NCBI GenBank assembly: GCA_029838195.1
Contig: JALGVJ010000003.1
Span: forward strand, 1-64,000
From: Promethearchaeota archaeon
GTDB lineage: Archaea > Asgardarchaeota > Lokiarchaeia > Sigyniarchaeales > SOKP01
Length of the DNA: 64,000 nt
Direction: 5' to 3'
Below the pieces are notes generated by a model, which saw only the letters and a program-made list of their open reading frames with translations, was not told where the DNA came from and ran no database searches. A program made the position numbers and the translations under genes. This document shows, piece by piece, positions 1,782 to 43,860 of the stretch. How positions within the stretch are numbered: position 1 is the first letter of the stretch; the number at the start of each line of letters is the position of its first letter.

Positions 1782-2105
1782 GTTATTAAAGAGAACAAAA
1801 ATTTAAATAAAATGATGTAACATGAGAATAATATGAGAATAACATGAAAACAATATGGTGTCGGTCTTGTTTCTCAAGATCTCTTCAAGCTTCTAGGGAA
1901 AGAGAAATGCATTTAATTTTAAATTAACAATCCAAATCCCTTACATTTTCACTTTTTCAAGGAGTACGGGCTCTCATTCCCTAAAATATTAATTGAAAAA
2001 GAGTAAAATTTTAATTTGTCTATTATTTTATTTATCATCTTATATTTAATTTCATGTAAAAAATTAAAGATAATCTTAAAATGGAGGAGGTTTTCAATAA
2101 AAATC

Positions 2106-2435
2106 ATGTTTAGTAAGGAAATTAAACCAAACCAAAACTATACTTTGGAATTTGAAACTAAGAATAATGAAACGAAATATGCGGAATGGAAAATCACGTT
2201 TCGAATGCTTGGATTGCCCCACGAGCAAGCCTTTAAAACAATAACCATTTCTCCAAACCAGACGGTAGAAGAGATTAAACGAATAATTTTAAAAGAATTT
2301 CAGCTAAATCCTTTAATAGATATTCAATTACTCTTTAGAGGGAAAGTTTTATCAGAACTTAATAATATAAATGACTTCAAAATCTCCCCTGAAGAGGATA
2401 CCATTACCGTAATGGCAGTAATGAATGGAGGCTGA
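2106..2435 (+). CDS. ubiquitin-like modifier protein with C-terminal Gly-Gly
   Basis: A 109-residue protein with a beta-grasp pattern: a first hairpin (about 20-43), a helix with TVEEIKRIILKEF, an IQLLFRGKVL strand matching the ubiquitin IFAGKQL segment, and a final strand TITVMAVMNGG ending exactly at the di-glycine. A mature C-terminus means no processing protease is needed before activation. In Asgard archaea and Caldiarchaeum such proteins serve as ubiquitin-like modifiers with E1/E2/RING partners; none of those, nor a JAMM protease, is in this window. The frame is open 30 codons upstream, but those residues are hydrophobic and out of character, and GGAGG at 2083-2090 favours the ATG at 2106. 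Its role as a modifier is inferred from the fold and tail. Confidence 0.75.
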   Translation: MFSKEIKPNQNYTLEFETKNNETKYAEWKITFRMLGLPHEQAFKTITISPNQTVEEIKRIILKEFQLNPLIDIQLLFRGKVLSELNNINDFKISPEEDTITVMAVMNGG

Positions 2436-22996: not shown

Positions 22997-23310
22997 TTAA
23001 TTTTGTTCCTCTAAGATTCTTTTGATATCCTCAAAATCTAACGCAATAATATTATTTAAAATTAATTTTTCCTTTTGCGTGAAACTCTTTGCTATTACTC
23101 CAAAATATTCTATTCAACAATTCCGTTCCCATTCTATTAATTATGCTTTTCTTTTGAGTTCTTCAATAATTTTCCTTGTTTTCTGAAAGGTAGATTAGCC
23201 CATTTGAATTCAAAAAAAGTAATCTCTTTCGCCTTTTCATTTATCGTAAGGATATCTATTTCATCCTTCTTGAAATCTGTCTCTCTTTCTATTAACAAAA
23301 TTACTAATCA
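22997..23310 (-). pseudogene. archaeal AAA ATPase, DUF234 C-terminal domain, decayed
   Basis: Minus-strand frames, pieced together across frameshifts and stops, read EIDILTINEKAKEITFFEFKW, then ILEELKRKA, then EYFGVIAKSFTQKEKLILNN and a final DFEDIKRILEEQN before the stop at 22997-22999. This is the restriction-nuclease-like C-terminal domain (DUF234) of archaeal STAND-type ATPases, with the D..E.K nuclease core still readable. The ATPase part is missing. Confidence 0.65.
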
Positions 23311-23546: not shown

Positions 23547-24332
23547 TCAAATAGTAGGAAATACTATCGTCCATTTATTTTCATTCATTAAATTCGCCGT
23601 TCTACCCATTAACTCAACTGCTAATTCTCTATCAAGATTTCTTAAGATTGAATGATTATCTATTTCATCATATAACTCATATCCATTATCTATTAAATTA
23701 ATTCCATATCCAAAAAAAGTTTTTAATCCCTTGTCTAAAGAACTTATTTTTCTGCCTTCAAAAATATAATATGCTAATGCTTCGAGTTGATATGATTTAA
23801 AACATTTTCCATTAATATAATTCCATTTTTTTAATAGCTTTATCAGTTTTGTTCCTAATCCGTTATTCTTTTTATTTAAATCATTTAATTTTTCCTCATC
23901 TAACTCTGGATTAATAACAATTGTATTTCCACCTTCTGGAATTCTGAGAAAACCACGATTCAATTCAATTGCCGGAATTAAGTCTAATTCTATATCATTA
24001 TTAAAAAGGCACGGAATCGCATGTAGATAAGGTGGGCCACGAGCAATTTCAAAAGGTACGTAATATTCTTCTAAATCTCTTAATTTATATTCGAAATTAC
24101 TTAATAAATTATATTCTTCAAAGTATCCCTTAAAATACACGTCTACATCAAAATAGTTTCTGATGCATGTGTATCTATCAAAACTGCCTCCATATCTATA
24201 TCCATAACAATTTGGTTCAACTTGAGAAAATTCATTGTGAATCTTTTTTATACAATTTTTAATATATTTCTTTCTTTCGGGAGTTATTGAAATTTTTATT
24301 AAAATTTTTTCTAAATACTGATTTGGATTCAT
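23547..24332 (-). CDS. CD-NTase (cGAS/OAS-like second-messenger nucleotidyltransferase)
   Basis: A 261-residue polymerase-beta-fold nucleotidyltransferase. The GS motif is YGGSFDRY (G49 S50), the first two catalytic acids are D62 and D64 in YFDVDVYF, and the third is D117 in IELDLIPAI. After it come GFLRIPEGGNTIVINP and LIKLLKKWNYINGKCFKSYQ, then LEALAYYIF: the order IPD-like loop, TNP-like strand, LIKLLKxWN helix and LExLA helix is that of CBASS CD-NTases and OAS, not of CCA-adding enzymes. It should make a cyclic or linear oligonucleotide. Cotranscribed 23 bases after the wHTH-CARF gene. No CBASS effector, E2 or HORMA gene is adjacent. Confidence 0.8.
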   Translation of the reverse strand: MNPNQYLEKILIKISITPERKKYIKNCIKKIHNEFSQVEPNCYGYRYGGSFDRYTCIRNYFDVDVYFKGYFEEYNLLSNFEYKLRDLEEYYVPFEIARGPPYLHAIPCLFNNDIELDLIPAIELNRGFLRIPEGGNTIVINPELDEEKLNDLNKKNNGLGTKLIKLLKKWNYINGKCFKSYQLEALAYYIFEGRKISSLDKGLKTFFGYGINLIDNGYELYDEIDNHSILRNLDRELAVELMGRTANLMNENKWTIVFPTI

Positions 24333-24355
24333 TTTTTAAAGCCTTCCAACCTTAT

Positions 24356-25075
24356 TTAATCGAATAACTTAATCTCTCCTTCTATTTTCATTTTAGAAAG
24401 AGAATATAATCGATAATTCTTTTTCTCGTCCATGGCGCAATAAACACTCGGAATGAGATATTTATTAGATAATTCTAATAACTTTAGGGTATATAATTTA
24501 CTTAAAGGGGTTAAATCTAAAATAATATCGGCATTTTTCATTTCTTTGCTAATTATGCTTTCTACTTCTTTAAAAAATTTAGATCCAAGATTTCGGTAAT
24601 CCTCATAATTATATGAAAAAGTCTTATGAATTTCAATTAATTTTTCAGATTCTTGCTTTTCTTTTCTTTTTGCCTCGGCGTCTGGAGATGTAAAACAAAT
24701 AATTTTTGAAATGGGATAACGTTTCTCTTTTAATAATTTGAATACCCTATCAGGAACTTTATAACCCTCTTTTAATACACCATATCCAGTAATGAGAGTG
24801 AAATTTTTTATTTCATAGCCTAAAATTTGACGTACTTGTTGCCGAGCAGTAGAATTTAACAAAATATTATTTATTTTAACATTTCCGACTTGTTGAAGGG
24901 TAATTCTCTGAATTAAACCCAAATCTTCTAATCGATTCAAGTGATAATGCAAATTAGAGCCGGTAGTTTTCAATTTTCGCTGTAATTCTTTTTGCTGGTA
25001 TTCTCTCTTAAATAATAATCTTAATATTTTTATTTGCGTTTCTGGAAAATCCTTTTTAATTAAATTTTTTTTCAT
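24356..25075 (-). CDS. winged-helix regulator with C-terminal CARF-like domain
   Basis: A 239-residue protein. Residues 8-75 form a winged helix (ETQIKILRLLFKREYQQKEL, recognition helix around TTGSNLHYHLNRLEDLGL). Residues 90-239 are Rossmann-like: LITGYGVLKEG, SKIICFTSPDAEAKRKEK, and ADIILDLTPLSKLYTLKLLE, the last matching the D/N-L-T/S-G-G-x-K nucleotide-binding turn of CARF domains with Pro-Leu-Ser replacing Gly-Gly-Thr. Order is wHTH then CARF, the reverse of Csa3. It is followed by the CD-NTase in one operon and faces viperin across a promoter with two operator-like sites. Inference: it senses the CD-NTase product and controls viperin and itself. Confidence 0.72.
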   Translation of the reverse strand: MKKNLIKKDFPETQIKILRLLFKREYQQKELQRKLKTTGSNLHYHLNRLEDLGLIQRITLQQVGNVKINNILLNSTARQQVRQILGYEIKNFTLITGYGVLKEGYKVPDRVFKLLKEKRYPISKIICFTSPDAEAKRKEKQESEKLIEIHKTFSYNYEDYRNLGSKFFKEVESIISKEMKNADIILDLTPLSKLYTLKLLELSNKYLIPSVYCAMDEKKNYRLYSLSKMKIEGEIKLFD

Positions 25076-25112
25076 TACGTTTATATGATTTTTAAAAATT
25101 ATAATATTTTAC

Positions 25113-25151
25113 TTTAACGGCCGTTAAATGATAGACCGAACGGCGGTTAAA
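25113..25151. promoter_or_regulatory. paired operator sites in the divergent wHTH-CARF/viperin promoter
   Basis: A perfect 16-bp palindrome TTTAACGGCCGTTAAA (25113-25128) is followed 23 bp later by a near-copy, AACGGCGGTTAAA (25139-25151), matching 12 of 13 bases. A second inverted motif CCGAACGG overlaps the copy. Both sit upstream of the viperin TATA-like stretch (atatttaa, about 25158-25165), which lies near 25 bases from the ATG and suggests a leaderless mRNA. GC-rich palindromes stand out sharply here. The adjacent winged-helix protein is the obvious candidate to bind them. Confidence 0.75.
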
Positions 25152-25186
25152 CAAGGATATTTAAGGGAAATAAAAATCTATTACAT

Positions 25187-25999
25187 ATGAAAAAACACGT
25201 GAATTTTCATTTTTGGCCTTATTGTAAATTTAAATGCAAGTATTGTTTTTTAAAATTTGAATACGTGAAAAGACCTTTATCCAAGAAAGATTGTATGAGT
25301 ATCCTCTTAGCGTTATGGGAATTCGGAGCTGAGAAAATTAATTTCGTAGGGGGAGAGCCTACTTTATGCCCATTCTTAGGAGAATTAATTGCTTACGCCA
25401 AGAATTTAGGCTTCACGACCAGTATCGTTTCAAATGGAACGGTAATTACACCTTCTTTCTTAAGGAAGTATGGAAAAAATATCGATTGGATTGGATTAAG
25501 CCTTGATTCCGGAAATGAAGAGACTCAAAAAGCCCTTGGACGTGGAAATGGCAACTACGTCCAAAAAACGATTAATAAAAGTCTCATGATCAAAAAATCA
25601 GGAATTAAATTAAAGATCAATACCGTTATAACTCGTTTGAATGTTAATGAGGACATGTCTGCTGTTATTAATAAAATCGCTCCTGATAGATGGAAAGTTT
25701 TCCAAATGCTCATCATTAAGGGACAAAATGATAATGAAGCAAAAAATCTCACCATTTCCTCATCTGAATTCAAGAATTTTACTAAAAGATATGCTGATTT
25801 TAATCCAATAGCTGAGAATAATGACGCAATGGTAGATTCTTATATCATGATCGACCCTTTAGGTAGATTCTTCCAAAACTCAGGAGGCACCTATAGTTAT
25901 AGCATGCCAATTTTACAAGTGGGCGTGTTTAATGCTTTTGACCAAATCACGTTTAATCATGATAAATTTATAAAAAGAGGCGGAATCTATTCTTTCTAA
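25187..25999 (+). CDS. archaeal viperin (radical SAM ddhNTP synthase)
   Basis: A 270-residue radical SAM enzyme that follows eukaryotic viperin end to end: VNFHFWPYCKFKCKYCF with cluster cysteines C13, C17, C20; EKINFVGGEPTLCP; SIVSNGTVI; IGLSLDSGNEETQKALGRG; KINTVITRLNVNEDM; DRWKVFQMLIIKGQN; and the C-terminal VDSYIMIDPLGRFF and FIKRGGIY. Prokaryotic viperins convert CTP, GTP or UTP to 3'-deoxy-3',4'-didehydro nucleotides that terminate viral RNA synthesis. It lacks the amphipathic N-terminal helix of animal viperin. No nucleotide kinase lies beside it, unlike many relatives. Confidence 0.92.
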   Translation: MKKHVNFHFWPYCKFKCKYCFLKFEYVKRPLSKKDCMSILLALWEFGAEKINFVGGEPTLCPFLGELIAYAKNLGFTTSIVSNGTVITPSFLRKYGKNIDWIGLSLDSGNEETQKALGRGNGNYVQKTINKSLMIKKSGIKLKINTVITRLNVNEDMSAVINKIAPDRWKVFQMLIIKGQNDNEAKNLTISSSEFKNFTKRYADFNPIAENNDAMVDSYIMIDPLGRFFQNSGGTYSYSMPILQVGVFNAFDQITFNHDKFIKRGGIYSF

Positions 26000-26055: not shown

Positions 26056-26178
26056 ATGGGAAAAAGTAAGATGAATAAGTCAGCAGCTCGGAGAATTCAA
26101 TCACACGCAGATAAAACGGGAAAAAATCAAGGCTTCAAATCCAGAGCTATGCGCGCTGCTGACAAAAATAAAAAATAA
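26056..26178 (+). CDS. small basic SMP-like protein (40 aa)
   Basis: A 40-residue protein, MGKSKMNKSAARRIQSHADK then TGKNQGFKSRAMRAADKNKK. The RIQSHADK...GFKSRAMRAAD pattern resembles the short SMP (seed maturation protein-like) repeat found in small proteins of many organisms. It has an exceptionally strong Shine-Dalgarno, AAGGAGGTGA at 26041-26050, five bases before the ATG, in a region where most genes show none. It starts 56 bases after viperin and may share its transcript. Function unknown; the charge suggests nucleic-acid or protein binding. Confidence 0.7.
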   Translation: MGKSKMNKSAARRIQSHADKTGKNQGFKSRAMRAADKNKK

Positions 26179-26952: not shown

Positions 26953-27750
26953 TTATTCCTCCGTCGTGAATTGAATCAATTCTTTTTGAAAGAGATATTT
27001 TAAAACAAAAGCTATGCCGATATATGTTATTTTAATTTTTTTTTCTATTTTTGTTTCTTGATTAACCATTGTTTCCAATACGGATATTTTTTTTAATTTC
27101 TTGATAAATCCATTAATAGAACCCCGAGTAATTTCTTCATTTTTTATTTTTTTCCCATAGGCTTTTCTTAGATCTTCAATGGATTCAAAATTTCTAATAC
27201 AAGTTAAAATTTTATCAAAAGACTCTTGATTTTTCATTATTTCTACAATATCTCTATAGCTTGTAAAAAATAACTCTAAAAATTCATATTGCTTTTCTGT
27301 GGGAGTTGTTAAAGGGATTCTCACTAAGTTCATATTATAGTTAATCCCAACGGCCTCTTTTCCTTTATACTTGAAATCCCCATGAATTATATCCGTATTG
27401 GTAATTAAACATCCTAAATAACACCAGATCACCATAAATCTTAAGCCTCCCGAAACATTTACCGAAATATTCTTAAATCCAAGTAATCGCTGTTTATAGA
27501 TAGTGAGGGCAAGTTCCGCCACGGGTCTAGTTTGCTCGGTAAAACTATACTCCACTATTTCCGTATTAATTAATCTTTCTTGATAATAATTTTTTAATTC
27601 TTGAATGACTCTTATTTTTTCTTCCGTACCTGAAATTTTTTCACGTTCTTTAATAAGAATTAATTTGTCCACTATTTCCTTATCTATAGAGAGTTTTAAC
27701 CTATTCGGATGGAGACCTACCAGGACGATTAGGCATTTTTTATTTTCCAA
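26953..27750 (-). CDS. Csa3-like CARF-wHTH transcriptional regulator
   Basis: A 265-residue protein. Residues 1-135 form a CARF domain: KKCLIVLVGLHPNRLKLSI, a helix with VAELALTIYKQ, and KNISVNVSGGLRFMVIWCYL at 93-112, with the NxSGG nucleotide-binding turn intact. The rest is helical with a winged helix (ITRGSINGFIKKLKKISVLE). This is the domain order of Csa3, which in Crenarchaea responds to cyclic tetra-adenylate. No CRISPR-cas gene is nearby; it is divergent from the NurA-HerA-Mre11-Rad50 operon starting at 28001, its most likely target together with itself. Confidence 0.8.
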   Translation of the reverse strand: MENKKCLIVLVGLHPNRLKLSIDKEIVDKLILIKEREKISGTEEKIRVIQELKNYYQERLINTEIVEYSFTEQTRPVAELALTIYKQRLLGFKNISVNVSGGLRFMVIWCYLGCLITNTDIIHGDFKYKGKEAVGINYNMNLVRIPLTTPTEKQYEFLELFFTSYRDIVEIMKNQESFDKILTCIRNFESIEDLRKAYGKKIKNEEITRGSINGFIKKLKKISVLETMVNQETKIEKKIKITYIGIAFVLKYLFQKELIQFTTEE

Positions 27751-28000: not shown

Positions 28001-29383
28001 ATGCCAAATTTTATCGATCTATTTGGATCACAAATAGATAATAAGAAAAGGACTTTTATCCAGTATTTAACGAAAGGAAAAGAATTGAAATTTTTAGAGA
28101 AAGATTATGAGAAACAATTCAAAAGGTTTTTTATTCCTATAAAAACTAATACATCAATTCCAGAAAATTTTGAAGCAGTGGCGGTTGATGCGAGCGGAAA
28201 AAAAAGAGAATTTTCCAACGGAACTTATTTCTTAATATATAGGGCTTCTGGAATTCAAAATAATGGCAATATTAAAAGAATGTTAGATACGGATATTTTT
28301 ACTCTTTCAGAAGCGAGTACAGAAATAAATCGATATTTCGGTAGAAAATTGGAGCATATTGAATTGAAAGTCCTCGAATCATATTTAAATGAGATAGAAA
28401 AAACTAATCAGTTACGAGTTGGTTTTATTGATGGTTCCATTTATAATCGCTTAATGAGTCGGATTTTTGAATTTTCGGTGGAGGGTGATGAAAAATTTAT
28501 GTTGAATTATATTGAAAAAGTTTTTGAAGTTTTAACAAAAGCTAAAGAGAAAAATGTTGTGTTAATTGGTGTAAGCAAGGATTCCAGGGAAAGTTTTTTC
28601 AGAAATGCTTTACTTGATGAAATTTATTATGAGGAAAGAGACAAATTAAAGAAATCGGGAAAACTTACTCAAAAAGAACTCTTATTAATTGAAGATGTAA
28701 TCAAAGAGATTGATGTTTATAATGAAGATAAAGTCAGAAGATTTAAGGAATTAGTCAAAAAAAATCCAATACTTCTAAATAAAATGTATCTAATTTATAA
28801 CGAGTATCTTAATCTAAGAACTGATGGTGAAATTATGTATCGTTTTGCTAAAGATCCTGGTTATACATTTCCAATCGAAAAAGGATTAGGAAGAAGGGAG
28901 CAAGTTAATATCTTTAAACAAATGGTAAATAATACGGATAACTATATTTCAAGTAAATTTAGAAGATATCTTTCTAATCTTGACGATAAAGAGAAAAAAA
29001 AGTTCCTAATAGAAGCAAGGAGAGTTATACAAAAATTTAATAATATTCCTACTTTCATTTCATACCATATATTGCCCGATATTAGAGATAATCCCATTAA
29101 AATAGATGTTCCAGGTTGGTATTTTAAAACTTATCACAAACTGATAAACTTTCCTCACGTGTGTTTTTATAATCAAACGGATCCGATGATAGAGAAAATA
29201 TTATTAGTTAATATGAAATTATACTGTGGATTAAATAATTATAATTTACTTCTCTCTGCTGCCCATAATGATGCTGTTTTAAGAGAGAAAACATATATGG
29301 ATGTATATGAGCAATATTTACAAGATAAATTGGAATTAGTATTACCTTATAGAAGAAGAACAAAAAGACAAATATATGGATGA
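28001..29383 (+). CDS. nurA: NurA nuclease
   Basis: A 460-residue NurA-family RNase H-fold nuclease: FEAVAVDASGKKREF (catalytic Asp63 on the first strand), VGFIDGSIYNRL (second Asp), VLIGVSKDS, and near the end PIKIDVPGWYFKTYHKLI and NLLLSAAHNDAVLREKTYMD, the usual NurA C-terminal signature. NurA degrades 5' strands when driven by HerA. First gene of a four-gene operon; its stop overlaps the HerA start. Residues 225-330 form an extended charged helical insert, making it longer than crenarchaeal NurA. Confidence 0.88.
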   Translation: MPNFIDLFGSQIDNKKRTFIQYLTKGKELKFLEKDYEKQFKRFFIPIKTNTSIPENFEAVAVDASGKKREFSNGTYFLIYRASGIQNNGNIKRMLDTDIFTLSEASTEINRYFGRKLEHIELKVLESYLNEIEKTNQLRVGFIDGSIYNRLMSRIFEFSVEGDEKFMLNYIEKVFEVLTKAKEKNVVLIGVSKDSRESFFRNALLDEIYYEERDKLKKSGKLTQKELLLIEDVIKEIDVYNEDKVRRFKELVKKNPILLNKMYLIYNEYLNLRTDGEIMYRFAKDPGYTFPIEKGLGRREQVNIFKQMVNNTDNYISSKFRRYLSNLDDKEKKKFLIEARRVIQKFNNIPTFISYHILPDIRDNPIKIDVPGWYFKTYHKLINFPHVCFYNQTDPMIEKILLVNMKLYCGLNNYNLLLSAAHNDAVLREKTYMDVYEQYLQDKLELVLPYRRRTKRQIYG

Positions 29384-31002
29384 TGATAATGATAAGAGAG
29401 AATTTTATTGGATATATTATCGGGGAGGCTTCTACTATGGAGTTTGAATTTGTCACGGATGAAAAGTTAGCTCCCCTAAAATGGGATTATTTAATGGTGG
29501 AATCTTTTGAAAGAAGGGAGGGAAAAGAATTTAAAGTGGAAATATTAGCACAAGTATCTGAAATCTTTGCTTTTAGCAAAAATATCACTATAGATACTCT
29601 TCCTTCTATGGTAAAGAAACAAATTGAACAAAATATTGTCAATCCCAAAATATATGGAAGAGCAAAGGTCTTGGGTTATATTGATAAGAATACTAAGAAC
29701 AAATTGATAAGAATTCCACGAAGAAATAGACTCCCCGGTGAAATGGTTTTTAGAGCACCTAATTCTTTATTAAGTGAATTCTTTAGTAAAAGAGAAGATG
29801 AAGGGCTTGAGATAGGAACCCTTTTAACAAATAGTCAAGTAAAGTTATTATTAGACCCGAATGGTCTCAATAGACATCTTGCCATTATAGCTCAAACTGG
29901 TGCAGGTAAATCATATACAACTGGAGTAATCATAGAGGAACTCTTTAAATTAGGGGGATCTATATTAATATTGGATCCTCACTCTGATTACGTTTTTCTA
30001 AGTCAAAAAGCAAAAGATTATTCTTTAGTGGAGAGGAGTGAATATATAAGAGTTTTTCGTAATCCCAATAGTACGGGAAGATATTCAAGTTCCTCTATAA
30101 TTAATCTACATCATTATGAAATAAATTTTGCAAACTTAGATGAGGAGGATATTGCGGAGATCTGTTTCATACCTGGGAATGCAGTCAGAATTAAGGAGAC
30201 AATAAGGTCTGCGATCGAAAAGATTGACGAAGACAATTATTCTCCTGAAAAATTGATCGAGCAATTAGAGGATATGGAAAAAAAAGCCCCCAATAGCAAG
30301 GAGCGCAGTATTATACGGAGTACAATTATAAGAGTAAGGCAGCTACTAAGATATAAGGTATTTGGAAATAATGATGTTCCTATAGAGGATATTATAAAAC
30401 CTTGGACGATCTCAGTGTTAGATCTTTCTGGATTAACAGATAAATCAATGAATTATATCGCAGCCCATATCTTACAAGAGACATATTCATATATCCTAAA
30501 TAAGGTGGATTTTCCCATATTCATCATTATTGAGGAAGCTCATAGATTTATCCCTCCTATCTCCAAAAAACAAACTTTTTGTAGTCGAATAATTAATACC
30601 ATAGCCGCGGAAGGAAGAAAATTTGGTTTATTTTTGATATTGATAACCCAAAGACCTTCCAAATTAGATCCTAACAGTCTTTCTCAATGCAATAGTCAAA
30701 TCATCATGAAAATTACTAATCCTGAAGATCAACAAGCAATTTTAAAATCGAGTGAGCGAGCTACTGAAGAATTATTGAATAATCTTCCGGCACTTTCGCC
30801 AGGTGAGGCCATCATTACTGGGGAAATCGTAAAAGTCCCAGTCATGGTTTCTATTAGAGAAAGAATTACTCGAGAAGGTGGAGCGGATATTAATATATTA
30901 GAAAAACTAAGACAAGCCAGAGAAGGATATGAAATAGAAAAAGAATCTGAGGAAGAAGAAAAATCAAGAATTAATCCTCGTAAAAATCCTTTCATGAGAT
31001 GA
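29380..31002 (+). CDS. herA: HerA hexameric DNA translocase
   Basis: A 540-residue HerA/FtsK-type ATPase: an N-terminal HAS barrel (about 1-110), Walker A AQTGAGKSYTTG near 171-182, ILDPHSDYV, Walker B FIIIEEAHRFIPP, and sensor sequence LILITQRPSKLDPNSLSQCN, followed by EAIITGEIVKVPVMV. It pumps DNA into NurA. The start overlaps the nurA stop, with ATG codons at 29380, 29383 and 29389, showing tight translational coupling. The charged C-terminal tail (EKESEEEEKS) may contact partners. Confidence 0.92.
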   Translation: MMIMIRENFIGYIIGEASTMEFEFVTDEKLAPLKWDYLMVESFERREGKEFKVEILAQVSEIFAFSKNITIDTLPSMVKKQIEQNIVNPKIYGRAKVLGYIDKNTKNKLIRIPRRNRLPGEMVFRAPNSLLSEFFSKREDEGLEIGTLLTNSQVKLLLDPNGLNRHLAIIAQTGAGKSYTTGVIIEELFKLGGSILILDPHSDYVFLSQKAKDYSLVERSEYIRVFRNPNSTGRYSSSSIINLHHYEINFANLDEEDIAEICFIPGNAVRIKETIRSAIEKIDEDNYSPEKLIEQLEDMEKKAPNSKERSIIRSTIIRVRQLLRYKVFGNNDVPIEDIIKPWTISVLDLSGLTDKSMNYIAAHILQETYSYILNKVDFPIFIIIEEAHRFIPPISKKQTFCSRIINTIAAEGRKFGLFLILITQRPSKLDPNSLSQCNSQIIMKITNPEDQQAILKSSERATEELLNNLPALSPGEAIITGEIVKVPVMVSIRERITREGGADINILEKLRQAREGYEIEKESEEEEKSRINPRKNPFMR

Positions 31003-32201
31003 GTTTTAAAATGGTTCAAATTTTACACACGGCTGACTTTCATTTAGATCCCAAAATGACTAACTTTCTTCACAGAGATCAAGAACGCAGAGATGATTTT
31101 CAGAAAAATTTTGATGAGATAATCAATTTTTCCCTAAAAGAAAGACCAGATATATTATTAATTTCGGGAGATCTTTTTGATAGCATTAATCCCAGAAATC
31201 CCGTTAGAAATCACGTGATTTCGCAGTTTAAAAGAATCCATTCAAAAAACATTAAAGCGTTTGTTATAGGCGGCAATCATGATATGCCTAGATCTATAGA
31301 AAATGCTCTCAGTCCAATTTCGATATTAAACACGATTGAATACATAGATTTCATCCAACCAGAAGGTCAATTCATCAGTAAAAGGGAGCTAAATATAAAT
31401 AATCTAAAAATAAATATCTTTGGTGAATCTTATGATGTTTTGAATACCAGAATGAGAGATCCATTGGATGAATTGAGTTTTGGAAATCTCGATGCGGATC
31501 TTAACATATTTATGGTTCATGGGAGTATAGGCTTATTTAGATATCGATATCCGGGAGATTATATCATTAAAGAAATTAATATTCCTGAAAAAATAGATTA
31601 TGTTGCAGCAGGTCATCTCCACGACCATATTGAAAAGGAAAGATACAATCCAAATTTAGGATCGAGCACTCTTATGGTTTATCCTGGTAGCATCGAGTTT
31701 TTATCTTTTAATGAAAATTTAAAAAAAGTGAAAGGATTTATGTTTTTAGAATATGATAAAGAAGGTCTAATTAATAAGGAGTTCATTAAATTGGAAACAC
31801 GTCCTATAGAGCAAATACCAATTTCGATTAATACCAATCAAGAAAATATTTATCAAACAATAATTCAAGAGATTGAGAATTTTTTAAATGATCGAAAAAT
31901 TCTAAAAGTCATCCTCGAAGGAAAGATTAAAGTTGACCAGATCGCATCAATTAAATCTTCAAAATTAATTAATTATGGAGATGAAAATTGCTTTAAATTC
32001 TTCTTAGATTCCTATTCAAAACTTGATTTTGAAACCACTGAATTAATTTTACCTGATAAAGAGAGAGCAAGCCCTATAGAAATTTTTTCACAATTTGTAG
32101 ATTCGTTAATCGCTAGGGAAGAAAATGAGAATTTTAAAAAAATTCTAATTGATGCCAAAAAAATAAGCTTAGAAAAGCTTGAAAAATTTGGGGTGAAATA
32201 A
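30999..32201 (+). CDS. mre11: Mre11 DNA repair nuclease
   Basis: A 400-residue calcineurin-like nuclease with all phosphodiesterase motifs: HTADFHLD, ISGDLFDS, GGNHDMPRS, MVHGSIG and VAAGHLHDHI. The capping and C-terminal Rad50-binding parts follow. The ATG at 30999 overlaps the herA stop (ATGA); an internal ATG at 31011 would also give a complete domain. It should form the end-processing complex with the ATPase encoded directly downstream. Confidence 0.9.
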   Translation: MSFKMVQILHTADFHLDPKMTNFLHRDQERRDDFQKNFDEIINFSLKERPDILLISGDLFDSINPRNPVRNHVISQFKRIHSKNIKAFVIGGNHDMPRSIENALSPISILNTIEYIDFIQPEGQFISKRELNINNLKINIFGESYDVLNTRMRDPLDELSFGNLDADLNIFMVHGSIGLFRYRYPGDYIIKEINIPEKIDYVAAGHLHDHIEKERYNPNLGSSTLMVYPGSIEFLSFNENLKKVKGFMFLEYDKEGLINKEFIKLETRPIEQIPISINTNQENIYQTIIQEIENFLNDRKILKVILEGKIKVDQIASIKSSKLINYGDENCFKFFLDSYSKLDFETTELILPDKERASPIEIFSQFVDSLIAREENENFKKILIDAKKISLEKLEKFGVK

Positions 32202-32203
32202 AA

Positions 32204-35200
32204 ATAGAATTAAAATCTTTAAAATTAAGAAATTTCATGGTAATTAAAAAGGCTACTATTAATTTCATTCATGGGATAATGGCGATCATAGGGCCAAATG
32301 AAGCAGGAAAATCCACTATTATAGAGGGCGTCTTATTCAGCTTATTCGGCAAACGAGCATTTAGAGATTATGAACATTTAATCCATTTTGAATCAAATCA
32401 TGCTAAAATTTCCCTAATCTTTTCCGTTAGGGATAATATTTATCGAGTAAATCGAGAATTAAGAAAGAGCAAATCAGGTTCAACAAGTCAAATAAATGCT
32501 GTACTTTCAGAGTTAACCAATGGAGAAGAGCATTTTATTATAGCTAAAGGGGTATCAAACGTTGATTCTCAAATTGAACGAATCATTGGATTTTCTTATA
32601 ATGAACTCACGGCTTCAAATATTATCGCTCAGAAGAAATTAAACAAGATAAGTAAAATGACACCTCAAGAATGGAAGGAATTATTTAATGAATTTCTAAA
32701 CCTAAAAGGATTCGGAGATAGTATTTCAGAATTAAAAGAAGAGAAAAAAGAAAAACAAAATCAATTAAATAATGATGAGATTAGATTAGATGAATTGAAA
32801 AATAAAAAGGATGATTATTGGTCTCGATTCAAGGAATTAATTAGATTATCTAAAAATCATTATCGTAAAGCTAGAACTCACAGAAAACTCTCTAAAGAAG
32901 TAGAAATTTTATCAAAATATTTGAAAATTGTAAAAGATTACATAGAAAAAAGAGATCTAAAAATGAGACTTCAAGATGAGATGGCCTCTAAAGAGAAATT
33001 TTTAAACCAGTATAATGAACGTTTAGCTGAGATCGAGGCCTTAGAAGAAGAAACAGCACAATTAAAACATCAATTGGAAATTTATAAGGGATTAAATGAT
33101 GATGAAAAAAATTTTCTTAATATCAAAAACCATTTTGAGAATTATCAAAAAACACTAAAAAGAATAGAAGAATTAAAAGAAAAATTAAGATATATTATAG
33201 AATTAGAGGGAAAACTAGAAAATAAGAAAGAAAAATTTATAGAATACAAAGATATGCCTAATCAATTGAAACATTTCAGGGATTTAGAATCCTCATACAA
33301 ATTTTTAGAAGTTAATGTAAAGGAGAGAAATTCGCTTGAAGAAGAATTGAATAAGGTTATTACAGCCGAGAAAGAAGTAGCGAATTTAAAAAAAGATTTA
33401 TTGAAGGTAGAAGAAGATCTCAGTTATAAAAATGATTATATAGAAGCTGAAAATAAATTTCGTGAATTTAAAGCCAAATATGATCAAATAAAATATGAAA
33501 GAGATAAAAAAGAAGAATTAAAATTTGAGATTACCAAAATTAAGAAAACTTGTCCGAAAGAAACTCCCGAAGAGCTTGGAAATTTAAAAGAATATAAGGA
33601 TAGTTTGGAAAATCTTGTTAAAAAAGGTTTATTAAATTATATCACCCACTCATTTAAGTGGAATCTCCCCATTCTGATTGGATTTATAATAATTAGCTTA
33701 ATACCTATTTTTTTTGGTCGAATATTATATTCATTCATAGGAATAGGAGCATTTGCCCTATTTTTTATCTATTTATATTATAAATACCTTTCGCTTCAAG
33801 CATTAGTTAAAAAATTGGAAAATTTGATTTTTTCATTAAAAAAACTACAAAAAATAAAAGAAGAATTAAAATCAGTTGAGAAAAGCCTGGAAAAAAAATA
33901 TATTTCAATAGCTGAAATAATTAAAAGTTTATCAGAATATTATAGTAGTTCTTTTCAAGCGACGGAGGGCCTAAAAGAACAAGTATATTCATTAAATCTC
34001 TATTTTCAAGAAATTAATAAGAAATTGAATAGTTCAGAAGCTCGAATGGAAAATTTAAATAAAAAAATCAAGGAATTAAAAAAGCTCATAAAAAAGAAAC
34101 CAAAATTAGAGTATGATTTAGAAAACTCAATCAAGAATATTCATGAGGATAAAAAGCAATTGGATGCCATTTTTTCTGATGGTTTAGAAGAAAAGTATAT
34201 CAAAGAAAGGATTGACAAAATCTACTATGATGATTACATTGATTTTTCTATAGTAAAGCAACAGTTAAAGCAGATAGAAAATATTATTCTTAAAGATTTT
34301 GATCAATATAATATTTTAAAGAGAGAGATTGAAGATTTAAAAACTAAAACTAAAGATAAATCAACAGTGATTGAGAATTTAAAAAAAAAACAAAAAGAAA
34401 AACAAACTATATTTAATACTTTAGTTGAATTAATTGAAAGAATTAACCAAAAATATATAAATTCCATTACAAGTGAATTAACTATACATGAACAAGTAGA
34501 AAAAGTAATTCCTTTTGAAAATTCCATTAAAAAGCTTAATTCTTTTATCCAAGAAGATAAAAACGCACGTGACAAATTAGAAGCCCAAATAAATACAAAT
34601 AGCGCTCAGATCAATAAAAAACCGGAAGTAATTAAAAACATTAACAATATTAAAGGAGAGATACAAGAGATAATTTCCAATATAAAATCTATAGTTTTTC
34701 CAATAATCCCTGAAGAGATTTCAAATATCTTTGATAAAAATAAACCTAAAGATTGTCAGAATACCTTGGAAAATGAAATTATTGACTTAGATGAAAAAAG
34801 AAATCAAATTTATGGTGAAATGAAATCTATAAATACATCTAGAACAAAGATTCGTAATTATCTGAAAGATAATGAGCAAATTATTCATGATTTTTTTAAA
34901 ATGAAAAAAAAAGTTGAGAATTTAGAAAGAGAAATAAAAATATATAGTAAATCCATAGATTTGCTTGAACAAGTTAATAGAAAGATTTGGGATCTCCAAA
35001 TGCCCTATATCTATAGTTATATCAAGGAATTTTTACCTAAAATCACAATGGGGAGATATAGAAATATGATCATAACGCAGCCCGAATCACGTAGGAAGAA
35101 AAAATATGAATTTAAAGTATTTGAGGAAACTATAGAAACATATATAGATAAAAAATATTTATCAGGGGGTACTGATGATCAAATTTTACTAGTTATACGT

Positions 35201-35464
35201 GTTGCTGTTGCCATGTCTTTATTACCGCAATCTAAAGGACATTATCCTAAATTCATCTTTATTGACGAAGCATTCGCTTCAAGCGATGCTCAAAGAAGGA
35301 TGGAAATCTTAAATTGGTTAAAAAAAGATCTCTCCTCCATTTTTACACAGATCATTATCATCTCGCATCAAAAAGAAATTATTGAAGAAATACCCTATTA
35401 TTATAAACTCAATAGAGGAGATTTAATTGATAAATTTTTACCTGATCGAGAAATCATAAATTAA
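32204..35464 (+). CDS. rad50: Rad50/YhaN-like ATPase with transmembrane hairpin in place of the zinc hook
   Basis: About 1086 residues. Walker A GPNEAGKST is near residues 30-38, the Q-loop region in NIIAQKKLNK, then long coiled coils, with a C-terminal signature LSGGTDDQILLVIRVAVAMS and Walker B KFIFIDEAFASSD. No CXXC zinc hook exists; instead about residues 485-535 read LPILIGFIIISLIPIFFG and GIGAFALFFIYLYYKYLSL, two membrane helices at the coil midpoint, as in YhaN-type proteins. The first ATG is 32237, but the frame upstream encodes ELKSLKLRNFM, the conserved first strand, so translation probably begins at an ATA (32204, or 32198), 8 bases after GGGGTG. Confidence 0.8.
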   Translation: MELKSLKLRNFMVIKKATINFIHGIMAIIGPNEAGKSTIIEGVLFSLFGKRAFRDYEHLIHFESNHAKISLIFSVRDNIYRVNRELRKSKSGSTSQINAVLSELTNGEEHFIIAKGVSNVDSQIERIIGFSYNELTASNIIAQKKLNKISKMTPQEWKELFNEFLNLKGFGDSISELKEEKKEKQNQLNNDEIRLDELKNKKDDYWSRFKELIRLSKNHYRKARTHRKLSKEVEILSKYLKIVKDYIEKRDLKMRLQDEMASKEKFLNQYNERLAEIEALEEETAQLKHQLEIYKGLNDDEKNFLNIKNHFENYQKTLKRIEELKEKLRYIIELEGKLENKKEKFIEYKDMPNQLKHFRDLESSYKFLEVNVKERNSLEEELNKVITAEKEVANLKKDLLKVEEDLSYKNDYIEAENKFREFKAKYDQIKYERDKKEELKFEITKIKKTCPKETPEELGNLKEYKDSLENLVKKGLLNYITHSFKWNLPILIGFIIISLIPIFFGRILYSFIGIGAFALFFIYLYYKYLSLQALVKKLENLIFSLKKLQKIKEELKSVEKSLEKKYISIAEIIKSLSEYYSSSFQATEGLKEQVYSLNLYFQEINKKLNSSEARMENLNKKIKELKKLIKKKPKLEYDLENSIKNIHEDKKQLDAIFSDGLEEKYIKERIDKIYYDDYIDFSIVKQQLKQIENIILKDFDQYNILKREIEDLKTKTKDKSTVIENLKKKQKEKQTIFNTLVELIERINQKYINSITSELTIHEQVEKVIPFENSIKKLNSFIQEDKNARDKLEAQINTNSAQINKKPEVIKNINNIKGEIQEIISNIKSIVFPIIPEEISNIFDKNKPKDCQNTLENEIIDLDEKRNQIYGEMKSINTSRTKIRNYLKDNEQIIHDFFKMKKKVENLEREIKIYSKSIDLLEQVNRKIWDLQMPYIYSYIKEFLPKITMGRYRNMIITQPESRRKKKYEFKVFEETIETYIDKKYLSGGTDDQILLVIRVAVAMSLLPQSKGHYPKFIFIDEAFASSDAQRRMEILNWLKKDLSSIFTQIIIISHQKEIIEEIPYYYKLNRGDLIDKFLPDREIIN

Positions 35465-39338: not shown

Positions 39339-40412
39339 ATGGAATCTCAAATAGATTTCGATATTAATGGAATTCAAAATATTTATGAAATTGTTGAAAA
39401 ACAGGTTAAACGCTTTCAACAACTACGACAATTAGTAAGAGAATTAAAATTTATTCCTGTAGACCCCATTGCGACTTATTCATCAGTTACTTATAAGTCT
39501 ATTGATGGTGGAAAAATGGGGATTTCATTTCATCCCTTTGAATTTGATTTTATTGTAATAGCAAATTCAATGGGTAGTGAATTGTTGAAATATTTAGTTC
39601 CAAAATCTGATTTTCTTAGTTCTTCAGATTTTCTTTATATGAATGGTTTTAAACAAATTAAATATTTACTAAATATTTTGGATTTAAACACGGTTTCAGA
39701 ATTATCTGATTTATTAATAAATCCGCAAATGGCAATGGAATTAACTGAATATGCTTGTATTTTCGAGAGATTAGGAAGAGATAAAAATGATCCAATAATT
39801 GTAATGAAAGATGGTCTTTTAAGGACAAAAGCGATTAAATATCAAATCATACCGAAAATGATCTCTTTTCTTAAAACTAATCCCAAGAGAAAATTAATTG
39901 GTGTTGCTAAAAGTTCACAGGTAATAAATCTAATATCGACAGCATTATATCTTGAAAAAGTAGTTCCTAAGAATTGCACAGGATTTATTGAGATTCCTTG
40001 GGAAATTGAAAAATTAGCATATAGGCAAAGTAAAATGAAATATCATTTGTATTATTCTTTTGGAAAGCTTTACGTGGCAAAATTATGTAAGAGATCAAAT
40101 CTATTAATCACTATTGAAATTCCTTATGATTTTAAAAATGATCAACCTGTTTATACTAAGTATGAAATTTTTGAAATTATTGGCCATTTAATCAAGGATT
40201 CAAGTGGATCCTATCCCATATTAGGATATCCCCAAACAATCATGAGAGCTCATGAAAAAGCTGTTAGGACTGGATTTTCCGCTTCTATTTGGAGAGATAA
40301 AATAATTAATTATTTATTAGAAAAACTTGGAGATAGAAAAATTAGGATTTTAATCCAAGAGAGTCATTTTCTTAAAGAATATGTACAAAAAGAAATATTA
40401 GGGGGGATATAA
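39339..40412 (+). CDS. NurA-like nuclease, second copy
   Basis: A 357-residue divergent NurA-family protein: TYKSIDGGKMGISFHPFEFD has the first catalytic Asp, IVMKDGLLRTKA the second acid, KLIGVAKSSQVINLI the middle strand, and SGSYPILGYPQTIMRAHEKAV the C-terminal signature. It lacks the long helical insert of the copy at 28001. The HerA-like gene begins 4 bases downstream, so the pair should form a NurA-HerA machine, here followed by an HNH nuclease. Confidence 0.75.
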   Translation: MESQIDFDINGIQNIYEIVEKQVKRFQQLRQLVRELKFIPVDPIATYSSVTYKSIDGGKMGISFHPFEFDFIVIANSMGSELLKYLVPKSDFLSSSDFLYMNGFKQIKYLLNILDLNTVSELSDLLINPQMAMELTEYACIFERLGRDKNDPIIVMKDGLLRTKAIKYQIIPKMISFLKTNPKRKLIGVAKSSQVINLISTALYLEKVVPKNCTGFIEIPWEIEKLAYRQSKMKYHLYYSFGKLYVAKLCKRSNLLITIEIPYDFKNDQPVYTKYEIFEIIGHLIKDSSGSYPILGYPQTIMRAHEKAVRTGFSASIWRDKIINYLLEKLGDRKIRILIQESHFLKEYVQKEILGGI

Positions 40413-40415
40413 TTA

Positions 40416-42593
40416 ATGGAAATGAATATTGGAGAACCTATAGGAATATTTTTGGGGATTGAAAGTACGACTTTTGAATATTTAGCAAGCATTATTACTC
40501 CATATCAATTAGATTATTCTCCAACAATTGGAACTTTTATACTAATCGATAATTTTGATGAGTATATTGTTGCTCGTGTAATGGAATATATCCCGCAAGG
40601 AGAAATGATTTCTTTTTATGGTAAAAAATGGTTATCTGAAGTAGCATTGACACCTGAAGTAATTGGGCAAGATATTAAAACAAGTAAGATAAGCTATTCA
40701 GTTAAAATAAAATTATTAGGGCGATTGAGTAAAAATTTAAGGACATTTATTCCTGGTATAAAAAGAATTCCTCACCTTACAAGTAAAGTTATTCAACCTA
40801 ACTCGAAAATCGTGAAAATCATATGTAATAAAGCATTGAAAGAAATGGAACAAGGAATAGAAATAGGGAATTATTGGAGTGATGAAAATATTAAGATACA
40901 TTTTGATATGAAAAGCTTAATTGGAAAAAGGACTTTCATATTCGCCCGAGCAGGTTACGGAAAAAGCAATTTAATGAAAATTATTGCTTCTAATTGGAAG
41001 GAAGAGTTTGGAAGTTTAATTATTTTTGATCCCGAGGGAGAATATTCAATTACAGATAAAAAAGAGCGCCCTGGAATAATGGATCAAATTCCCGCATTAT
41101 TAATAACTAATCGTATTGGAATTCAAGAAGGATTAGGTAATAATGTTTATAATAAATTAAAATTTGATTTTAGGAAGTTTCATCCAAAATTTATTATACC
41201 TATTATTGTTTCAGAGAGTAAATATGAATTTGTTTTTTTCAACAAGTTAATGAGCCTTACAAAGGAACAATGGTGTAATTTAATTGATTATTTATATGAA
41301 AATAGGTACAATGGAGAATATCACGAAATTGCGGAAATTATGGGAATAAAATATGAAAAACCTGTTGATGTTACTCCAATAATGAATAACATTATTCCTC
41401 CAATGGATCAATTACATGACCCAGAATCAAAACTTTTCTCAATATTAGAAAAAGCGGTAAAAAAAAATCTGATTATAATTATTGATATCTCATTATTAGC
41501 TTCAAATAATGCACTGAATTTATCTTCATTAATAATAAGTAAATTTTTCCGTAAAAATCAAAAAGAATTCACTATGAAAGGAAGGGATTTAAATAAAATT
41601 ACTTTTGTAATTGAAGAAGCTCAATCAGTAATAGGGGGCACGAATAATGTAAGTAAATTCGTTGAACTTGCTAAAGAAGGCCGGAAATATCAATTAGGGG
41701 CTATATTTATAACACAACAGCCAGGAAGTATTTCAATGGACATATTAAGTCAAGGAGATAATTTCTTTGTTTTTCATCTTTTAAGTAAAGATGATTTAAG
41801 AGCACTTCAAAAAGCTAATGCTCATTTTTCAAATGATATTCTAACTCAAATCTTGAGTGAACCTATTCCCGGTAAAGCATATATGTGGACCTCTCATCAG
41901 CCATTCGTAATTCCGCTTCAAATAAAAAATTTTGAATTAGAAGCAACACCAAATAAAGCTAAAGAAATACAAGCTCAAAATGATCTTTTAATGCCTATTT
42001 TAAACGAAATTGTTGAAATTTCCGAAATTGAAGAAAAAATAATAGAAAAATTCCAAACCATTTTAATAAATAATCAAATTGACATTCGGGATAAAGTTTC
42101 AATATTTAATAATACCTTAAAAAAAAAAATTACGGTTCAAACTTTTAAATTACTTTCCGAAAAAGAAATTAAATTCTTAGAAGAAAAAGATCTTTTAGCT
42201 AAAAATACAGAGACAAATAAACCTTATGCAGTAAGTTATAATTATCTCAGTGAGTTATATCAGAAAGCTCTTATGAAACATTCATTAAAAATAAAAAAAA
42301 ATATTCCTATTGAAGCAAATAGTACCGATTTGAAAATGATTATAGATGATTATTCTGTTAATATAAAAAACAATCCGAAAGATGGTAATTATGTAGAAAA
42401 TTTATATTATAGTTTTGAAACGGAAAAAGCAATAAAATTCAGACGTAAAAAAGACGATAAAATTCTTTGGATACCTAAATCTGCTATAAAAAATAAATGG
42501 GTTAAAGATAACAGTCTCTCTCAAAAAATTATTTTAAATTATATTCCCTCAGATTTCCAATGGAGTAAAGATAGAGAATTTAATGATAGGTAA
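40416..42593 (+). CDS. HerA-like ATPase with extended C-terminus
   Basis: A 725-residue HerA-type translocase: HAS-barrel-like N-terminus (about 1-140), Walker A ARAGYGKSNLM near 181-191, IIFDPEGEYS, Walker B FVIEEAQSVIGG, then LGAIFITQQPGSISMDILSQ and PGKAYMWTSHQP. About 200 further residues beyond the usual end are charged and helical, with a possible winged-helix region (EEKDLLAKNTETNKPYAVSY). It differs greatly from the HerA at 29380, so it is not a recent duplicate. Same transcript as the NurA-like and HNH genes. Confidence 0.85.
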   Translation: MEMNIGEPIGIFLGIESTTFEYLASIITPYQLDYSPTIGTFILIDNFDEYIVARVMEYIPQGEMISFYGKKWLSEVALTPEVIGQDIKTSKISYSVKIKLLGRLSKNLRTFIPGIKRIPHLTSKVIQPNSKIVKIICNKALKEMEQGIEIGNYWSDENIKIHFDMKSLIGKRTFIFARAGYGKSNLMKIIASNWKEEFGSLIIFDPEGEYSITDKKERPGIMDQIPALLITNRIGIQEGLGNNVYNKLKFDFRKFHPKFIIPIIVSESKYEFVFFNKLMSLTKEQWCNLIDYLYENRYNGEYHEIAEIMGIKYEKPVDVTPIMNNIIPPMDQLHDPESKLFSILEKAVKKNLIIIIDISLLASNNALNLSSLIISKFFRKNQKEFTMKGRDLNKITFVIEEAQSVIGGTNNVSKFVELAKEGRKYQLGAIFITQQPGSISMDILSQGDNFFVFHLLSKDDLRALQKANAHFSNDILTQILSEPIPGKAYMWTSHQPFVIPLQIKNFELEATPNKAKEIQAQNDLLMPILNEIVEISEIEEKIIEKFQTILINNQIDIRDKVSIFNNTLKKKITVQTFKLLSEKEIKFLEEKDLLAKNTETNKPYAVSYNYLSELYQKALMKHSLKIKKNIPIEANSTDLKMIIDDYSVNIKNNPKDGNYVENLYYSFETEKAIKFRRKKDDKILWIPKSAIKNKWVKDNSLSQKIILNYIPSDFQWSKDREFNDR

Positions 42594-42615
42594 AAAAGAT
42601 TTTAAATCATAAGAA

Positions 42616-43860
42616 ATGACATTAGTCAAATTAATTAACAGCATTTTAGAAATAGCGCGTAAAACTACGACTTATAAATTTGCAACCTTACTTTCTATTT
42701 TTGATTATGTTATAGATCATCCTGAAGAAGAGCCGATTAATAATTTTCATTTTATTCCAATAATCTATTTAGCAAGGCAATTCTTTTCCTATTATTATCC
42801 TCTTTCTTATTATGATTTTTCTCAAGGAACATCTACCGGGCTTGCGATTTATTCTCAAATCAATAAAAAATTAAAAAATAATGATAAGATAAATGACAAA
42901 TTATTATTAAAAGCCTTGAAGTCTCGAGCAGAGGGAATTGTTTGGATCAATCAATTGTATGATTCTCCCGATATGCTTCCAGAAATCCTTGTTAAGTTAC
43001 TTTGGGACATTCGAGGTAAGATTATTGATCAACCCTTGCATTATATTTCAAATATAGCAGGGACAAAACGAAGGTTTTTCGGCATAATAAATAAAACCCT
43101 TCAATTTGATTCTACTTATGAGGTTCATCGAGAAAAAGCAAGAAAGCAGCTTCCTCCCAACGAGCCCATGAATTGGTTGCAAATATTCATGTATGATCAA
43201 ACTTCTCTAATAATTGATGATCTTACTTATAAGGAATTAGCCCGATTTAGATTTTGGATTCGTGATGTGATTTTAAAGAAATGGTTTGAATTTTCACATG
43301 AAATTGACAAGAACAAGGGAAATATTTCTTATGATTATGGGGAATTTTTTAATATCTTGAATTTAGCCTATAAAAAAGAGATTTCTCGTGATTCATATTT
43401 GATATCTCGTTATAGAGATTTCTATATTCATATAGGAGCTCTTATTTCAATTTTTTCGGGGAAACGCTTCAATTCTAATGATAATTTTCAAATAGATCAT
43501 TTATTACCTTGGTCCTATTATCGCGTCAATCGTTTTTGGAATCTTTTTCCTCTTGAACCCGATATAAATCGAGAGAAATCAAATTATCTTCCGCGTCTCA
43601 CGGAAGAAATAGAGAAGAGAATTGCTCACCATTTAGAAGCGTGTATAAATAATTTAGACAACTCTTTAATAAAGAATGATTTGACTTATTTTTATTGGAT
43701 TCTTCAGAAGGATTTTACTTTTACTATTGAAGAATGTCATGCGGATGAAGTCGTGGAGCAATTATTGGTAGCAATTAAGAAAGATCTAAAGAATTTAAGA
43801 AGAATCATTCCGGGAAAAGAATATATTAAAGATACCTCATCAATCAAGGAGGGCAAATAA
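42616..43860 (+). CDS. HNH endonuclease-domain protein
   Basis: A 414-residue protein, 22 bases after the HerA-like gene. Residues about 285-325 hold an HNH site: FQIDHLLPWSYYRVNRFWN, LFPLEPDINREKSNYLP, with Asp-His, the central Asn and the later Asn/Lys in place. The N-terminal 280 residues are helical with no recognised fold. An added endonuclease could make the DNA ends that NurA-HerA then digest (inference). Confidence 0.72.
   Translation: MTLVKLINSILEIARKTTTYKFATLLSIFDYVIDHPEEEPINNFHFIPIIYLARQFFSYYYPLSYYDFSQGTSTGLAIYSQINKKLKNNDKINDKLLLKALKSRAEGIVWINQLYDSPDMLPEILVKLLWDIRGKIIDQPLHYISNIAGTKRRFFGIINKTLQFDSTYEVHREKARKQLPPNEPMNWLQIFMYDQTSLIIDDLTYKELARFRFWIRDVILKKWFEFSHEIDKNKGNISYDYGEFFNILNLAYKKEISRDSYLISRYRDFYIHIGALISIFSGKRFNSNDNFQIDHLLPWSYYRVNRFWNLFPLEPDINREKSNYLPRLTEEIEKRIAHHLEACINNLDNSLIKNDLTYFYWILQKDFTFTIEECHADEVVEQLLVAIKKDLKNLRRIIPGKEYIKDTSSIKEGK

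Follow-up and report, generated by a model that had tools for sequence, protein, structure and literature searches.

Across positions 23547–25999 of a 64,000-nucleotide stretch of contig JALGVJ010000003.1 (assembly GCA_029838195.1, Promethearchaeota archaeon; the whole stretch is referred to below as the window), a predicted cGAS/DncV-like nucleotidyltransferase (CD-NTase, or simply NTase), a regulator that joins a winged helix to a CARF domain (here called REG) and the radical SAM enzyme viperin are encoded side by side around one operator-like element; an arrangement that we lean, if only slightly, towards reading as a second-messenger-gated switch, in which the CD-NTase product would act through REG and the shared operator to induce viperin. 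The genome that holds the window (G000) comprises 4.5 Mb in 94 contigs.

The three open reading frames (ORFs) lie exactly where the original prediction, made from the letters of the DNA, had placed them. The genes for the CD-NTase (23547–24332, minus strand; 261 amino acids (aa); a predicted synthase of cyclic or linear oligonucleotides) and REG (24356–25075, minus strand; 239 aa; winged helix at the N terminus, CARF domain at the C terminus) are arranged head to tail with a gap of 23 bp. The viperin gene (25187–25999, plus strand; 270 aa), with a 3'-deoxy-3',4'-didehydronucleoside triphosphate (ddhNTP) as predicted product, points away on the opposite strand, leaving 111 bp between the start codons of REG and viperin. 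This arrangement exceeds chance: the divergence of regulator and viperin is found again in a second genome (G011), and the adjacency of regulator and NTase in a third (G033).

In the circuit that we propose, the CD-NTase, triggered by infection, would make a cyclic nucleotide, to be sensed by the CARF domain of REG; ligand-bound REG at the tandem palindrome described below would then turn on viperin together with the REG–NTase operon, and the induced viperin would make chain-terminating nucleotides. As the operator sits nearly midway between both start codons, REG and the NTase would be induced along with viperin; co-induction that would, in turn, amplify the alarm. We infer REG binding to the operator, the NTase product as ligand, induction over repression, and infection as the trigger. 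The CD-NTase, adjacent to REG and recurring beside it, is the best candidate for the source of the ligand.

A tandem operator-like element in the divergent promoter

The 111-bp promoter region holds a 41-bp tandem palindrome (25112–25152), formed from 16-bp dyads at 25113–25128 and 25136–25151 that are separated by a 7-bp spacer. This conserved element, absent from the original prediction, is the predicted binding site of REG and ties the regulator to the viperin promoter. To one side lies the REG promoter (25076–25111, minus strand), an AT-rich, TATA-like stretch on the side where 36 bp separate operator and REG start codon; to the other, a TATA-like element on the viperin side (25158–25166, plus strand) is offset from the operator by 5 bp, an offset seen in five loci. 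The spacing is equally regular: 34 bp separate the operator from the start codon of viperin (or of its remnant) in 4/4 loci, and 34–36 bp separate it from that of REG in five. A start distance of 34 bp suggests that the viperin transcript is leaderless; we predict the same of the REG transcript, with the one operator serving both.

Of 12 upstream regions inspected, eight contain a site of this kind that could be aligned by eye. When left out of the model in turn, six of the eight aligned loci were recovered at rank 1 and no shuffle (20 or 100 for each) scored as high, the window's own operator coming first of 127920 positions with 0/20 shuffles reaching its score. Across 147 genomes the operator pattern occurs at three places with zero mismatches and at one with a single mismatch, all four being REG promoters; as the search pattern was built from these promoters, the result speaks for specificity and is not a discovery. 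With up to three mismatches allowed, 58 of the 147 genomes are matched, mostly as noise; many are likewise matched by the reversed control. Outside the operator model, a Hodarchaeum contig gave a 29.1-bit match upstream of a regulator-like gene.

A regulon was sought throughout G000 using the simple dyad TTTAACNNNNGTTAAA, which recurs at one other place only, inside a coding ORF, and whose reversed control is equally common; with the dyad count equal to the control count, we claim no regulon beyond this promoter. The both-strand sites G037:C1:1882436, G037:C1:1776108 and G001:C151:2333 were dropped, there being no recognised defence gene among the nearby ORFs as read by eye.

Identity of the CD-NTase

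That the nucleotidyltransferase is a CD-NTase, as had been proposed, is borne out by profile, fold and motifs alike. The PADLOC oligonucleotide cyclase profile PDLC00823 covers residues 13–215 (E-value 2.7e-23); the motifs are G48-G49-S50, D62xD64 and a third aspartate, D117, and the alignment retains D62 and D64 in 9/9 covering rows, D117 in 11/11 and S50 in 7/9. The predicted structure has a CD-NTase fold across the whole chain, aligning with CdnD at full length, and the sequence profile of the enzyme retrieved PaCdnD entries only from the PDB (best 8.2e-07); a single-sequence PDB search yielded just chance rows, at 0.4 or worse. Against Pfam SMODS the protein reaches 25.8 bits, slightly below the cut-off of 26.5 (27.7 in the genome search, with its neighbours), and against NF041117 it reaches 50.4 bits, below a cut-off of 200; SMODS is a weak profile here, the window's own NTase scoring only 0.0037. 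The enzyme is predicted to make a signalling oligonucleotide.

Other assignments were tried and set aside. A CCA-adding or other housekeeping NTase is contradicted by TIGR03671 (11.8 bits against a cut-off of 281.3) and also by the fold, and the protein groups with CD-NTases and not with CCA enzymes, a place among the latter being what the original prediction had named as damaging to it; one clade member (P0037) is labelled a CCA-adding enzyme by one source. A minimal NTase of the MNT/HEPN toxin–antitoxin type, considered owing to a weakly HEPN-like gene behind the G033 pair, is disfavoured because the CD-NTase matches CdnD over its full length.

No gene for an effector of a cyclic-oligonucleotide-based anti-phage signalling system (CBASS) was found in the operon, in which the co-directed neighbour is the regulator, and the minus-strand ORFs listed between 22361 and 23546 (97 and 53 aa) gave no effector match. 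The sole Pfam match in these two ORFs downstream of the NTase is a fragment of a DUF234 protein (23137–23298, minus strand; 5.3e-06), which looks like decayed sequence.

REG combines a winged helix with a CARF domain

The description of the regulator as a winged helix joined to a CARF domain also stands. Pfam HTH_5 matches residues 12–56 (7.1e-08) and PADLOC CARF_m5 residues 18–217 (6e-15), and a structure model (predicted local distance difference test score 90.7) consists of a MarR/ArsR-like winged helix and, at residues 90–237, a C-terminal domain with a CARF fold. Lack of such a fold was another outcome that the original prediction had named as telling against it. Amongst the chains nearest to this modelled domain are Can2, VC1899, Cdn1, Csm6 and Card1, of which Can2, Card1, Cdn1 and Csm6 are receptors for cyclic tetra- or hexa-adenylate (cA4/cA6). 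The ligand motif of CARF domains is DxTGGTK-like; REG has D187-L-T189-P-L-S192-K193, with P and L replacing the two glycines, and the D, T and S are found in 28/28 aligned rows and the K in 27/28. REG is predicted to sense a cyclic nucleotide and to switch transcription in response.

A profile search of 5.8 billion proteins returned 121 relatives of REG; of the 120 listed, those with an organism name come from Asgard archaea, from an 'archaeon' or from marine sediment. Within the phylum the family is present in 12 of 227 genomes (threshold 1e-12), and a search of viral contigs found no REG. A distant relative in G054 (L037; 8.7e-07), matching CARF_m5 at 3.7e-41, belongs to a Cas10 locus and lies 4.3 kb from Cas10 itself, a position that fits cyclic-oligonucleotide sensing. 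G037 and a Hodarchaeum contig each code for a REG-type winged helix, apparently without CARF, downstream of a matching site; this ties the operator to the winged helix, and REG is predicted to be the protein that binds it.

Partners of REG in related genomes

The NTase stands directly behind REG in both G000 and G033. For 6 of the 11 NTase-clade proteins, moreover, there is a REG protein whose contig is equally long (192677, 2319, 1976, 81800, 6333 and 1175220); two of the six are G000 and G033 themselves, one pair has the locus tags 20235/20240, and from the equal sizes the two genes are probably adjacent on the four further contigs as well. Elsewhere, a TPR protein of ~1040 aa is found directly behind REG in G052, in G014 (where the contig end cuts the gene) and in the locus AMOR/L081; a HerA-domain protein takes this place in G069; and a helicase does so in G073, related to the MkoA-like helicase of G077, where one gene intervenes. 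Viperin is divergent from REG and intact in G000 and G011, the latter with a TPR protein behind viperin, and persists as truncated remnants in G052 and AMOR/L081. Although titled Patescibacteria, the contig of L081 (JANBVM010000002.1) carries a regulator resembling those of Asgard archaea as well as the TPR gene and the viperin remnant, and has probably been mis-binned.

On a tree of REG proteins (109 rows, 95 of them unlabelled; the G080 row trimmed at its start), the six NTase-linked REGs require one change, against a mean of 4.8 after shuffling and a value as low in 1 of 500 shuffles. Proteins shorter than 195 aa, P0123–P0131 (the lowest-scoring ones listed), the loci G037 and G172 with a winged helix-turn-helix (wHTH) only, and G070 (internal stop) were excluded. 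The REGs of G011, G052 and AMOR fall in a separate set of 42 rows with support of 96; viperin-linked REGs thus occur in both sets, and viperin stands beside regulators on both sides of the tree.

Viperin and its association with CARF genes

Viperin is full-length, as stated in the original prediction: it scores 297 bits (1.2e-88) against NCBIfam NF038283, for which the cut-off is 180, matches the PADLOC model for prokaryotic viperins (pVips) at 1.6e-85, and carries the CxxxCxxC motif as C13-x3-C17-x2-C20. Its matches in the PDB include the radical SAM protein 9dfw (6.8e-55, residues 4–269) and Viperin 6b4c (5.1e-53), and it is predicted to make chain-terminating nucleotides. Protection of E. 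coli against T7 is described for some Asgard viperins in PMC11291487, with 9/48 active in a first assay.

Among the 227 genomes there are 14 viperin genes above the cut-off, three partial matches below it (one in G076, two in G159) being excluded. Six of the 14 have a CARF gene divergent from them: REG in G000 and G011, and a protein of a second, CARF-first type in G114, G168, G186 and G187. The best PADLOC matches of the CARF-first proteins range from 4.4e-25 to 1.2e-51. By Pfam, their C-terminal winged helix is above the cut-off in G187 (4.3e-07), near it in G186 (9.6e-06), weak in G114 (0.0044) and undetected in G168; in G114 and G168 the assignment rests on full-length matches to PADLOC CARF3/Csa3. 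CARF control of Asgard viperin therefore seems, from gene order, to recur, and two CARF types at the same position support messenger control of the enzyme, whatever the source of the messenger.

Other viperin neighbourhoods deserve a brief mention. In G183 (L150, 1390–4801) viperin is divergent from a gene for a prokaryotic Argonaute (PADLOC pAgo, 7.3e-27). In G187 (L154) a MkoA-like helicase (1.1e-78) comes after it and a DrmC-like protein two genes later, with a CARF_m1 gene behind the CARF-first gene; G186 (L155) has genes of similar size and order.

Weighing the circuit against other explanations

Several observations weigh against a messenger-gated viperin switch. Conservation of the neighbourhood, which the original prediction had made a condition of its own survival, holds for its parts: the regulator–NTase and regulator–viperin pairs recur, whilst a second genome with the adjacent trio was not found, the full set being seen once, in G000. 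G033 has REG and NTase without viperin alongside, its operator facing instead a mini-gene of the SMP-like kind described below, and behind its NTase come genes for a weakly HEPN-like protein and for a Shedu nuclease (SduA, 2.5e-54; L024, 5246–7001). In G011, REG and viperin are present, but neither an NTase relative nor a SMODS protein (the profile being weak) nor a Cas10 was detected. The NTase-linked side of the REG tree has a support of 78 by the Shimodaira–Hasegawa-like approximate likelihood ratio test. The operator fails leave-one-out in both G073 loci, and no site in its register could be aligned in 4 of the 12 upstream regions (G014, G077, G069 and G070, the last with similar repeats at other spacing). 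Half of the 14 viperins (G166, the second G114 copy, G183, G159, G148, G045 and G077) showed no divergent CARF gene when judged by ORFs, a motif search and PADLOC scans of nine neighbours, which gave no CARF match; the G148 and second G114 genes are near a contig end, and the G190 viperin, with 151 bp of 5' flank, was left unjudged. Finally, G000 has two Cas10 loci, on C79 (L173) and C48 (L174), the first of which alone keeps the GGDD motif (SGGDDLF) and could itself supply the ligand of REG.

This last point leads to an explanation that we consider rather unlikely, in which REG is the receptor of a Csa3-like type III CRISPR relay and senses cyclic oligoadenylate made by Cas10, the CD-NTase being a second input or a separate matter. 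Besides the intact Cas10 of G000, the CARF_m5 relative close to Cas10 in G054 and the cA4/cA6 receptors among the folds nearest to the REG model speak for such a relay, and binding of cyclic oligoadenylate by Csa3 is described in PMC8844856 and PMC8699464. The adjacency of REG and NTase in G000, G033 and probably four more contigs nevertheless suggests that the cognate source is the NTase, and G011, which has REG and viperin and is 99% complete, has no Cas10 match. It is less probable still, in our estimation, that the NTase feeds a CBASS-type effector elsewhere whilst REG only silences defence genes and viperin is a co-regulated neighbour. The operator does face REG's own promoter too, the G033 pair does precede the HEPN-like and Shedu genes, and PMC9122588 reports a WYL transcription factor for CBASS; yet there is no effector-sized ORF behind the NTase in the window, and the CARF domain of REG keeps its ligand motif.

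A chance encounter within a defence island, with REG and NTase as one unit alongside which viperin merely landed, strikes us as highly improbable. The window does hold a defence-like cluster (a second CARF gene, HerA, NurA and HNH), and the trio's single occurrence would suit such an accident; against it stand the REG–viperin divergence in G011, the remnants in G052 and AMOR with their operator-to-start distance of 34 bp kept, and the divergent pairing of CARF-first genes with viperin in four other genomes.

Relation to known systems

The CBASS messenger as a rule triggers a cell-killing effector. The locus resembles CBASS in its predicted messenger-making CD-NTase, whose likely receptor is the product of the adjacent gene; it differs in that this receptor is a predicted transcription factor rather than a killer effector, with viperin the likely output, and in that no ORF of Cap2/Cap3 size lies behind the NTase. 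The WYL factor of CBASS, which is reportedly named CapW and is said to act as a repressor, is likewise a transcription factor that goes with a CD-NTase system; it has a WYL domain and controls CBASS itself, however, whereas REG carries a CARF domain and shares a divergent promoter with viperin. With Csa3 and CasR, REG shares the union of CARF and winged helix and a predicted conversion of cyclic nucleotide into transcriptional change. The domain order of Csa3 (N-terminal CARF, C-terminal wHTH) is reversed in REG, the CARF domain of which matches CARF_m5, and Csa3/CasR are paired with cas genes where REG is paired with a CD-NTase and viperin.

The pVips, said to have been described by Bernheim in 2021, are matched by the window's viperin in its full-length core and CxxxCxxC motif, but not in the CARF regulator and CD-NTase at its promoter. 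Eukaryotes reach viperin from cGAS/OAS by way of interferon; the series of nucleotide synthase, receptor, transcription and viperin is common to both, as an analogy only, the archaeal circuit having no STING, interferon or cell-to-cell step and a receptor that would bind DNA itself. A viperin–TPR association, reported as Archaea-only in PMC12988326, is matched by the TPR protein behind viperin in G011.

Coupling of a CD-NTase and a CARF regulator to viperin appears to be new, its parts—CBASS, Csa3 and viperin—being known. Within the open-licence PMC literature, by titles and the starts of abstracts, we found no paper linking viperin to either a CD-NTase or a CARF regulator, and the word CARF is absent from the main text of PMC11291487, PMC12988326 and PMC10732462. 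The PADLOC model PDLC02909 (Csa3) is numbered near the pVip and TPR models, so that the occurrence of Csa3 genes close to viperin may already be familiar to the curators of PADLOC.

We regard as evenly poised the broader proposition of an interferon-like prokaryotic axis, running from a cGAS-family messenger through a DNA-binding CARF receptor to viperin transcription, such that viperin in Asgard archaea, which are relatives of eukaryotes, would be inducible and repeatedly under CARF factors. If true, the link between nucleotide signalling and viperin induction predates, or is independent of, interferon. In PMC11291487 eukaryotic viperin is derived from Asgard viperins, and an archaeal origin, with the phylum unnamed, is supported in PMC12988326; given the proposed Asgard ancestry, how Asgard viperin is switched bears on whether the link between sensor and viperin is ancient or convergent. 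A messenger of this kind would, furthermore, drive a non-suicidal antiviral enzyme, a strategy unlike CBASS killing and in its logic like the viperin induction of animals. The operator, regulator and enzyme are all small, defined and tractable in vitro.

Other features of the window

Behind viperin, at a distance of 56 bp, lies a 40-aa mini-gene (26056–26178, plus strand), which we take to be SMP-like; it is possibly co-transcribed with viperin, has no Pfam match and is the sole copy found in G000. Further copies occur beside REG in two genomes, G033 and G014; G045 has a decayed one behind its viperin gene, and in G056 a copy follows an NTase relative. With 31 SMP-like matches in 24 of 147 genomes, most copies are elsewhere.

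A second CARF protein, of CARF3 type (PADLOC 2.5e-13), is encoded at 26953–27750 on the minus strand, so that CARF genes flank viperin on both sides; Pfam finds no helix-turn-helix in it, and in G043 (L071) a homologue with 49% identity is separated by ~2.4 kb from a relative of the NTase. Beyond this gene, the region 28001–35464 holds NurA-, HerA-, Mre11- and Rad50-like genes, among which Pfam identifies HerA and a metallophosphatase; NurA and Rad50 are readings of the sequence. A NurA–HerA pair followed by an HNH endonuclease (39339–43860) looks like a defence module. Further along, the minus-strand gene at 46603–49671 codes for what reads as an SMC-like coiled-coil protein, the C-terminal part of which is a Zc3h12a-like NYN RNase domain, and near the start of the window a ubiquitin-family ORF (2016–2435, plus strand) ends in Gly-Gly.

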